64,000 nucleotides of DNA, taken from assembly GCA_002869925.2 (NCBI GenBank), contig NEWT02000017.1, positions 26,831 to 90,830 on the forward strand, in the 5' to 3' direction. The notes under the pieces are model-generated. The model made no database searches. It was not told the origin of the DNA and worked only from the letters and a program-made list of their open reading frames with translations. Position numbers and translations under genes: made by a program. Positions within the stretch are counted from its first letter, which is position 1, and every line of letters begins with the position of its first letter. Of the stretch, positions 28,121-31,431 are shown one piece after another. Source of the DNA: Nitrospira sp. CG24A. Its GTDB lineage: Bacteria > Nitrospirota > Nitrospiria > Nitrospirales > Nitrospiraceae.

Positions 28121-29257
28121 CTATGGAGTCTTCGCACACCGAAACCCGGTCCCCATACCCCGGGCCGACAGCAAATGGCTGTCCCGATCCGTGGAGCGTA
28201 GATCCTTCGGACCGCTGCCCCAGGAACCACCCCGAATCACCTTGGACTGGCCCTTCAGCGGCCCTGTCGGATTCTCCGATGGACTGGACGCATAATAGTC
28301 AGCATCATACCAATCGCTGAATTCCGATAACATTATTTCATACGCCGTCATGCCCGGCTCACGCCGCGGCACATCGGTCAAGTCCAGATCGATTCCGTTG
28401 CCGGCACGCGACGCCATTTCGCAGGACGAACTGGTCAGCCCTGCCGCCCCCATGTCCTGAATACCAACCAGCAGATCGCCGGCCATCAGTTCAAGACAAG
28501 CTTCCAACAACAGCTTCTCTGTAAAAGGATCGCCCACCTGCACCGTGGGCCGCTTCTGCTCTGACTGGTCATCAAAAGAATCGGACGCCATCGTCGCGCC
28601 ATGAATTCCGTCACGGCCCGTCTTCGAACCAAAATAGATGACCGGATTACCGACCCCGGCCGCTGTCCCAAGGAAAATCTTGTCCTTGTGCGCAATGCCG
28701 AGGCAAAACACATTCACAAGCGGATTCTGCGAATATATATCGTTGAAGACAATTTCGCCTCCAATCGTCGGCACACCCATACAGTTGCCATAGCCCGCGA
28801 TGCCAGCCACGACACCCTTAACCAGATGCCGGTTCTTCGCATGATCGAGCCCGCCGAACCGCAACGCATCGAGCAAGGCAATCGGGCGCGCCCCCATCGT
28901 AAAGATGTCGCGCAGAATTCCGCCTACCCCGGTCGCCGCCCCCTGATAGGGCTCGATAAACGAAGGATGGTTGTGCGACTCCATCTTGAAGACCGCGCAG
29001 AGCCCATCGCCGATGTCCACGGCCCCGGCATTTTCCCCAGGTCCCTGAACCACCCGAGGCCCCGTCGTCGGCAATTTCTTCAAATGCACGCGCGAACTCT
29101 TATAGGAGCAATGCTCCGACCACATCACCGAGAACATACCCAGCTCAGTAATGTTCGGCTCGCGCCCGAGTACCTCGACGATCTTCTTAAACTCATCGTC
29201 AGTCAGATTATGCTGCGCAATGAGGTCTTTGGTAATTAAAGGTGATACAGATTCCAT
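28121..29257 (-). pseudogene. purL: Truncated purL (FGAM synthase II N-terminus) fused to the tail of an FGE/SUMF1-type gene
   Basis: A 378-residue frame. Residues 1-311 are PurL from its normal start: [64 protein letters not shown], ending [11 protein letters not shown]. The usual continuation (SQERML and about 430 residues with the ATP-binding second half) is missing. Instead, from about 28320, the frame reads [19 protein letters not shown]...RGGSWG...[10 protein letters not shown], the C-terminal end of a formylglycine-generating-enzyme-like domain. FGAM synthase cannot work from this product, and purine synthesis needs it, so either an intact purL exists elsewhere or the join is an assembly error. 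The start fits the purS-purQ-purL order of the operon. Confidence 0.85.
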
Positions 29258-29261
29258 AACA

Positions 29262-29554
29262 CTACACTTTCTTCCTTGGCCGTTTGCTCTTTGCCAACAT
29301 GACTGTTACATGACTCTTGAGAACAGGAAGACGTTGCGCATCCCCGTTATGCTTCGCCAAGGAACCTCCGCGTACGACTTTCTCAGATCAACAATAAGAT
29401 TCCTCGCTGCTTCCCCAATGATCTCCAGATTACGGATCACTGAATCCTGAATCATCGTGTCTTCTAAAAATGTCTTCCGGCCACCCTCTGTGTACTTCTC
29501 GATTTTAACGATGGCTTCGCGGATATGCTTCAGGTAAGCGGACACATCTTTCAT
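29262..29554 (-). pseudogene. HepT-like HEPN toxin with internal deletion of the catalytic segment
   Basis: The open frame (29306-29554) gives 82 residues with the family pattern MIQDSVIRNLEIIGEAARNL and VPWRSITGMRNV, then derails into FLFSRVM. In the +1 frame the sequence continues [22 protein letters not shown] and stops at 29262, which is the expected HepT C-terminus. The missing part between RNV and LPVLK is the stretch that normally holds the Hx(Y) of the RX4-6H RNase motif. An out-of-frame internal deletion of some 60-70 bp is the simplest reading. The ATG overlaps the MntA stop by 4 bp. The ancestral stop lies 5 bp before purL. Confidence 0.75.
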
Positions 29555-29838
29555 AGAGGCTTTGCCGTTCGAAGAATGGTTCGCCGCAAGTGCGGACTCA
29601 GCCCGTTCTCGGTCACAACGTCCACGTCACAACCCAGTAAATCCTGAATGTCCAGCTTGAACTCCACCAGGTCCAAGAGATCCCGATCGGATTGCAGCGT
29701 GATCAACAAGTCCACATCGCTCGTCCGCCTCGCATGACCAGCAGCATGAGAGCCAAACACCCGCACCCGCGACACTCCATGCAAGCGGGCAATCCGCCCA
29801 ATATCACCAGCCTTGCGTTTCAAAGCACGAGCGGTCAT
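29551..29838 (-). CDS. MntA-like minimal nucleotidyltransferase antitoxin
   Basis: 95 residues from the ATG at 29838; the longer start at 29856 adds residues from the neighbouring purL remnant. It has the pol-beta-type motif GSHAAGHARRTSDVDLLI, that is GSx10DxD, and a third Asp in DVDVV. In MNT-HEPN pairs this protein neutralises the HEPN RNase by transferring AMP to the Tyr of its catalytic motif. Here the toxin partner has lost that segment, so the antitoxin has no target in this locus. Confidence 0.85.
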   Translation of the reverse strand: MTARALKRKAGDIGRIARLHGVSRVRVFGSHAAGHARRTSDVDLLITLQSDRDLLDLVEFKLDIQDLLGCDVDVVTENGLSPHLRRTILRTAKPL

Positions 29839-29860
29839 GAGTCCACCCCAATGCAAATTT

Positions 29861-29942
29861 GATCCCGCCCAATAATCTCGGCGATCTTCTCATACTAATC
29901 ATCCGTCAGACTATGCTACGTGATGAGGTCTTTGGTGATCAG
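29861..29942 (-). pseudogene. Decayed second copy of the purL 5' end
   Basis: Read leftward from 29942 it encodes LITKDLIT-stop-HSLTDD-stop-YEKIAEIIGRD, colinear with [27 protein letters not shown] at residues 7-33 of the purL frame. Two codons (Gln and Glu in the intact copy) have become TAG. The fragment ends where the MNT gene begins, so the toxin-antitoxin module sits between a dead and a live purL start. Confidence 0.8.
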
Positions 29943-29965
29943 CTGCCTTTGGTCAGCACCACAAC

Positions 29966-30460
29966 TCAGTCATTACTCCGTCTAAAGTTTTTCAAGAACT
30001 TTTCATACAAGGGAGACTGAACCTCTTTGGGAACTTCCGTATCAGGAATCTTCTCAAGTTCTGCCTTTGGAGTCAGATAGACCCCTTTTTTCTGCAAGGC
30101 GTAGCGATATTCTAAGGCCTTATCCCCATAAAGTTCCTTGAGTAGATTGGTGGCAAGTTCTTCATTATGTCTTCCAGCTTCATCCCAGTGACCAGCATTC
30201 CAAACCAACATGGCAGTTGTTTCTAATGCTATTCTCGTTGCTGCTTCTTCAGCGTCCTTCTTGATGTCATTTAACTCAAATCCGGCATACTTGATCGAAC
30301 GTGGCTGCACAAGCGAGACCAGAATCAACAATGTACCAAGCGTCAATAGGCCAAGAAATGCAGCATCAATTTTTTCTTTTCGCACGAACACAAACCAAAC
30401 AAATATTCCAATGATTCCGCACCCGAAAATCCCAATGATACAGAATTGCCAATTTGACAT
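29966..30460 (-). CDS. Two-helix membrane protein of unknown function
   Basis: 164 residues with two N-terminal membrane helices (about 5-26 and 34-51) and a cytoplasmic, Glu/Lys/Ala-rich C-terminal part. No family recognised. Its base composition is more AT-rich than the neighbouring purine genes and it splits purQ from purL, so it is probably an acquired passenger that arrived with or near the MNT/HEPN module. Confidence 0.55.
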   Translation of the reverse strand: MSNWQFCIIGIFGCGIIGIFVWFVFVRKEKIDAAFLGLLTLGTLLILVSLVQPRSIKYAGFELNDIKKDAEEAATRIALETTAMLVWNAGHWDEAGRHNEELATNLLKELYGDKALEYRYALQKKGVYLTPKAELEKIPDTEVPKEVQSPLYEKFLKNFRRSND

Positions 30461-30708: not shown

Positions 30709-31431
30709 TCACGTCCCCACCATCTTCAGCTCCTTCTTATTTCCCCTCAGCGCCTCCAGCATCGACAGGAAAATCAGCTTCCCTTCGTCATTGCCCAATA
30801 CCGCTTCCGCGCAGCGCTCCGGATGCGGCATCATGCCCAGCACATTCCCTTCGGCATTGATGATTCCGGCAATGTTATCGAGCGAGCCGTTCGGATTCGC
30901 CTCCGGCGTCACCTTGCCATCCGGGGTGCAATAGCGGAGCACGATCTGCGCATTCGCCTGCATCGACGCAAGCGTGACCGGATCGGTGTAGTAGTTCCCG
31001 TCTGCATGGGCAATCGGGATCTTAACCACCTGACCGGACTCATAAGCGCTGGTAAATGAAGTGGCCGCATTTTCAACCTTCACCGATACATCCTTGCAGA
31101 TGAAATGCAGCGACTTGTTCCGGAGCATGGCACCGGGCAACAGGCCTGCTTCCAGCAGAATCTGAAACCCGTTGCAGATGCCAAGTACCAACCCACCCTT
31201 CTTCGCAAACTCCTTCACCGCCCCCATCACCGGCGAGAAGCGCGCGATCGCGCCAGTCCGCAAATAGTCGCCATAGGAAAACCCGCCAGGCAAGACAATC
31301 GCGTCCAGCCCCGCGAGCAAGGTCTCCTTGTGCCAGATCATTTCCACATACTGGCCCAGCACATCCTTGAAGATATGCCGACAGTCGTGATCGCAGTTAC
31401 TCCCAGGAAAAACCGCCACTCCGATTTTCAT
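30709..31431 (-). CDS. purQ: Phosphoribosylformylglycinamidine synthase, glutaminase subunit
   Basis: A 240-residue class I glutaminase that feeds ammonia to PurL. The nucleophile Cys is in [14 protein letters not shown], and the His-Glu pair is in [27 protein letters not shown] is typical of PurQ. It starts 26 bp after purS. In the usual small-PurL system PurS, PurQ and PurL form one complex; here the purL gene is broken. Confidence 0.96.

Follow-up and report, generated by a model that had tools for sequence, protein, structure and literature searches.

The 64,000-nucleotide stretch of Nitrospira sp. CG24A DNA analysed here (the window) very probably carries a decayed type VII HepT/MntA toxin-antitoxin module between purQ and purL of the purine operon, in which the toxin gene hepT was disabled by one 61-bp deletion and the antitoxin MntA was left partnerless (Table 1). 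The loss of hepT is ordinary toxin-first decay and one more example of a known pattern. Truncated or absent toxins beside retained antitoxins were reported at 23–52% of homologous loci in three Pseudomonas systems (PMC7280312).

Table 1. Features of the purQ-purL region, in positions of the window
Feature	Position	Strand	Remarks
purL N-terminal part (PurL 1-296) fused in frame to an FGE-sulfatase C-terminal piece	28121..29257	minus	
C-terminal end of hepT, conserved (LPVLKSHV...KKV, stop TAG) but shifted to the +1 frame	29262..29330	minus	
Truncated hepT frame	29306..29554	minus	82 aa = 75 native residues + 7 out-of-frame; PF01934 E 7.4e-15; NCBIfam HepT 30 bits
Deletion junction	29330..29331	minus	61 bp absent against same-locus orthologues L054 and L055 (alignment)
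Intact mntA antitoxin	29551..29838	minus	95 aa, GSX10DXD; PF01909 5.9e-14; NCBIfam MntA 51.7 bits
Decayed purL 5' copy (purL nt 11-111)	29850..29950	minus	nhmmer E 8e-21; 79% identical over 77 nt; two in-frame stops
orf164, older insert between purQ and the purL 5' relic	29966..30460	minus	
purQ, upstream border of the hotspot	30709..31431	minus	

The broken hepT gene and its antitoxin

Read on the minus strand from position 29554, hepT is open to GMRNV, continues as FLFSRVM and stops at 29306. Its C-terminus in the +1 frame ends at a TAG (29262–29264) located 4 bp ahead of the purL ATG. A sequence-only reading of this stretch had described a frame that is normal to GMRNV with the expected C-terminus in the +1 frame, and the reading frames at 29554–29262 bear this out. 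The N-terminal part matches the HepT-like domain PF01934 over profile positions 1–89 of 120. The score of 30 bits with the NCBIfam HepT equivalog does not reach the cut-off of 60.

Two metagenome-assembled genomes, L054 (Nitrospira sp.) and L055 (Nitrospirae), carry mntA-hepT directly before an intact purL, in the same arrangement as the window. They are the best intact homologues, with identities to the window of 67–68% for mntA and 61–62% for hepT. In the same-locus alignment both carry the missing segment, as 61 extra bp at the junction AACGT/CTTCCTG, and this is the one absence from the window gene. The window hepT is broken by a single 61-bp frameshifting deletion, by which 20 codons are gone and the C-terminus is shifted. 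The segment encodes LIHEYFGVDLSIVWGVVSKR in L054 and includes the invariant H78 and Y80. R73, H78, Y80 and W89 are invariant in 28 intact HepT homologues; the Arg is present in the window, and the His, Tyr and Trp are gone. The remaining positions that are conserved in 80% or more of these homologues are retained, except at four where S, R, T or N stands as a replacement.

The motifs RX4HXY of HepT and GSX10DXD of MntA have been described, and the Tyr of RX4HXY receives AMP (PMC7641770). When the window HepT was examined for RX4HXY, R was found, and H78 and Y80 were absent. The earlier claim that the motif had been lost was therefore right for the His and Tyr, which lie in the 61-bp gap against L054 and L055, and wrong for the Arg. 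The same-locus orthologues support the view that one deletion took the active-site His together with the AMP-acceptor Tyr. However, the wording that exactly the RNase motif was deleted was too narrow, because the deletion runs on past the motif into the residues that follow and shifts the reading frame of the C-terminus. The further claim, that the removal of the active site was not random decay, was not supported. A random 61-bp deletion in hepT removes both the His and Tyr codons with P = 0.18 (18% of the time), and the motif is lost by deletion or frameshift with P = 0.79; unrelated hepT deletions are also found in relatives. Therefore, nothing beyond chance is needed for the loss of the motif.

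In L055 the lost segment is flanked by CGTCTT on the 3' side and by AACGTTCT on the 5' side, so that a repeat of about 3–6 bp is likely at the deletion junction. The exact position of the junction (29330/29331) is ambiguous by a few bp owing to this microhomology. The 61 bp were probably lost by replication slippage or end-joining at such a short, CGTCTT-like repeat. The catalytic His and the AMP-acceptor Tyr went with this event, as did the residues that follow them, and the 82-residue product is predicted from its sequence to be without RNase activity.

The adjacent antitoxin had been read as intact, in agreement with the open MntA frame and its GSX10DXD motif. MntA has an NTP_transf_2 domain (PF01909) with GSX10DXD (GSHAAGHARRTSDVD) and adjoins HepT, and the mntA stop overlaps the hepT start by ATGA (4 bp). 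Its NCBIfam MntA score of 51.7 bits is under the cut-off of 60. The module resembles Class I of type VII HepT/MntA systems (PF01934/PF01909) in the mntA-hepT order, the 4-bp overlap, GSX10DXD and the Arg of RX4HXY. It differs from them in a toxin that is without the His and Tyr of RX4HXY and the residues following them, and whose C-terminus is out of frame.

Toxin loss at the same locus in relatives

In G027, mntA (92% amino acid identity to the window) runs into a gene designated X at a common sequence, ATGAAAGAT, and hepT is absent. In G019, mntA (82%) is joined to the last codons of a DUF5674 gene, which X follows, and hepT is again absent. Only 41–46 bp of the mntA 3' end are left in G020. 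Judged from these sequences, at least three different deletions seem to have disrupted or eliminated hepT (in G000, the genome of the window; in G027, possibly shared with G020; and in G019). The mntA frame is still open in G000, G027 and G019 despite the loss of hepT, and the toxin is intact in L054 and L055. The toxin gene would go first because its loss is harmless while the antitoxin is present, whereas loss of the antitoxin first is not. MntA in the window would now be an intact antitoxin without an active partner, dispensable or presumably neutral. The pairwise dN/dS of mntA is ~0.07–0.12 where calculable. This conservation could mean a remaining role, and most of the divergence behind the low ratio may predate the loss of the toxin. 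Decayed chromosomal toxin-antitoxin loci (xre-res, higBA, brnTA and ccdO157; PMC7280312) are alike in the disrupted toxin, the intact antitoxin and several independent losses. In contrast to them, the Nitrospira series lies entirely at one purQ-purL locus, beside relics of the purL start.

It has also to be considered that the deletion was selected, MntA no longer matching HepT after a swap of partners and active HepT being lethal. The G027 neighbourhood, where the closely similar MntA adjoins a different gene, would fit such a swap. However, X follows the DUF5674 gene without mntA in G005, G014 and G025, and the contacts between mntA and X in G027 and G019 are deletion joints; the swap was rejected as an explanation of these contacts. 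Moreover, mntA and hepT most likely travel together as a cognate pair, since their identities to the same relatives are similar. Selection by partner mismatch is thus highly unlikely.

We give as little credit to an adaptive truncation, in which the inactive HepT fragment would persist as a binding partner of MntA or as a buffer against other HepT toxins. The 75 N-terminal residues do retain nearly all conserved columns, the gene is still in its operon, and contig C29 holds another HEPN/MNT pair, whose HEPN gene is unbroken. On the other hand, the C29 proteins are distant from the window pair, relatives dispense with hepT entirely, and the retention of residues is equally expected from a recent deletion.

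Another mntA-hepT locus was seen elsewhere in the genome of G012 (L163 2883–3513). The N-terminal part of its hepT looks broken, and it may be a further toxin loss.

Gene X encodes 116–121 aa and was located at L007 1144–1509 and L143 1012–1374, as well as in L144 (G025) and L153 (G005). It had no Pfam or NCBIfam match. It stands after the DUF5674 gene and directly before purL or a purL relic, and the two genes are possibly an undescribed module of toxin-antitoxin type.

Insertions between purQ and purL

The gap between purQ and purL is 27–123 bp in 11 members of the genus. In 16 other members, where it could be measured, it is 0.7 to ~2.6 kb and is filled with small genes. These are MntA/HepT, a HicB-like gene with HicA, DUF433/DUF5615, DUF433 with a 70-aa gene and ParE, DUF5674/X, and an Mrr-type nuclease. 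The HicB-like gene, which we take to be such, had no Pfam match. orf164 of the window had neither a Pfam nor an NCBIfam match and was present in no other region examined; its product has 164 aa and a hydrophobic N-terminus.

With a profile of the purL start, extra same-strand copies in a state of decay were found in the inserts. In the window the two matching stretches are 29850–29950 and 29150–29257, the latter at the 5' end of the purL frame. Similar relics are present in G004 (L138), G010 (L159), G014 (L143), G019 (L157), G030 (L152), G031 (L158) and L054, with weaker ones in others. A DNA search of whole genomes of the genus placed purL-start copies only near purL, and none were found away from this locus where the contig allowed the check. 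A control search with the purQ start in the same regions gave no same-strand relics. Many inserts lie downstream of such a copy, and no copies were seen at other places in the genomes; it therefore seems that the old purL start was pushed aside by insertions more than once. In G005, G024 and G025, X is immediately adjacent to the live purL, and a leader resembling the one ahead of purL there is present on the relics adjoining X in G014, G027 and G031. Because of this common leader, the relic has the appearance of an earlier purL start that a later cassette pushed away. The relic of L054 (2595–2706) hardly differs from the purL start of that same locus, by either recent insertion or gene conversion.

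A fixed attachment site was considered and rejected, since the relic ends vary (nt 49, ~68–76, 91–95 and 105–118), though all lie within the first ~5% of purL. Several relics have the same joint and were probably inherited; therefore, independent insertions are fewer than relics, with about five distinct joints. No relic exceeds ~118 nt of purL, one possible reason being selection against long repeats that recombine.

On balance we favour, with some reserve, the reading that the purQ-purL gap is a cassette hotspot without an integrase, in which cassettes insert at the purL start, the old start is left as a relic of ~50–118 nt and the toxins are then deleted. Each cassette (MntA/HepT, HicB/HicA, DUF433/DUF5615, ParE or DUF5674/X) would bring or make a new purL start. 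Antitoxins would persist after deletion of their toxins, and the loss of hepT in the window would be one frame of that process. A literature search returned no description of a toxin-antitoxin hotspot at purL or in Nitrospira, which is not proof of absence. The nearest described analogue is the sequential displacement arrays of T6SS immunity genes in Vibrio cholerae (PMC5361080). The likeness consists in the repeated insertion of toxin-type modules at one place, the displacement of older modules, the loss of toxins and the keeping of protective genes. In Nitrospira, by contrast, the remnant pushed aside belongs to a housekeeping gene, being the 5' end of purL, and the modules consist of intracellular toxin-antitoxin pairs. 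For the displacement of the V. cholerae effector-immunity modules, homology-facilitated illegitimate recombination has been put forward (PMC5361080).

Since the toxin is intact in some related genomes, truncated in others and erased in others again, all at one orthologous position, the locus provides a natural series in which the rates of toxin and antitoxin decay can be compared. The purL-start relics supply the order of insertion, which is usually missing for toxin-antitoxin islands. If they mark real integrase-free insertion at the start of a housekeeping gene, the mechanism is open to test.

Split and irregular purL genes

The purL gene of the window is itself incomplete, with its break near 28310. 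Its C-terminal part lies together with purF on contig C31 (L161 11056–12282), ~30 codons are missing, and the split reflects either a real rearrangement or a misassembly. FGE-sulfatase fragments were examined as the reciprocal breakpoint and were rejected, as none of 21 matches in the genome adjoins the C31 breakpoint.

The split has a bearing on whether the hepT deletion is itself an assembly or consensus artefact, the population gene being intact and the 61 bp being lost in assembly. The genome consists of 40 contigs (3.36 Mb), and a purL that is chimeric with an FGE-sulfatase fragment and divided between two contigs only 1 kb from hepT makes a local assembly or consensus fault possible. Nevertheless, the repeat at the deletion junction is just a few bases, far under assembly k-mers, and k-mer assemblers do not collapse sequence by a 61-bp loss at a repeat of that size. 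ORFs of at least 100 aa cover about 90% of the window, which otherwise has a normal coding density and thus gives no hint of frameshift errors on a wide scale. Related genomes are also independently without hepT at the same place. An artefact is accordingly improbable, and a real deletion in a decaying module is preferred.

Two further irregular purL genes were observed. The minus-strand purL of G027 (L156), which starts near locus base 2595, passes in frame from codon ~31 straight to codon ~136, so that ~104 codons are gone. The purL product is a normally essential enzyme, and no other purL copy was found in the G027 genome. The gap is either a real rearrangement or an assembly fault. In G019 (L157 8132–11809), PurL is one frame of 1225 aa with an in-frame insert of ~470 aa between YGNC and CMGVP. 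The insert ends in HN before Cys and looks like an intein.
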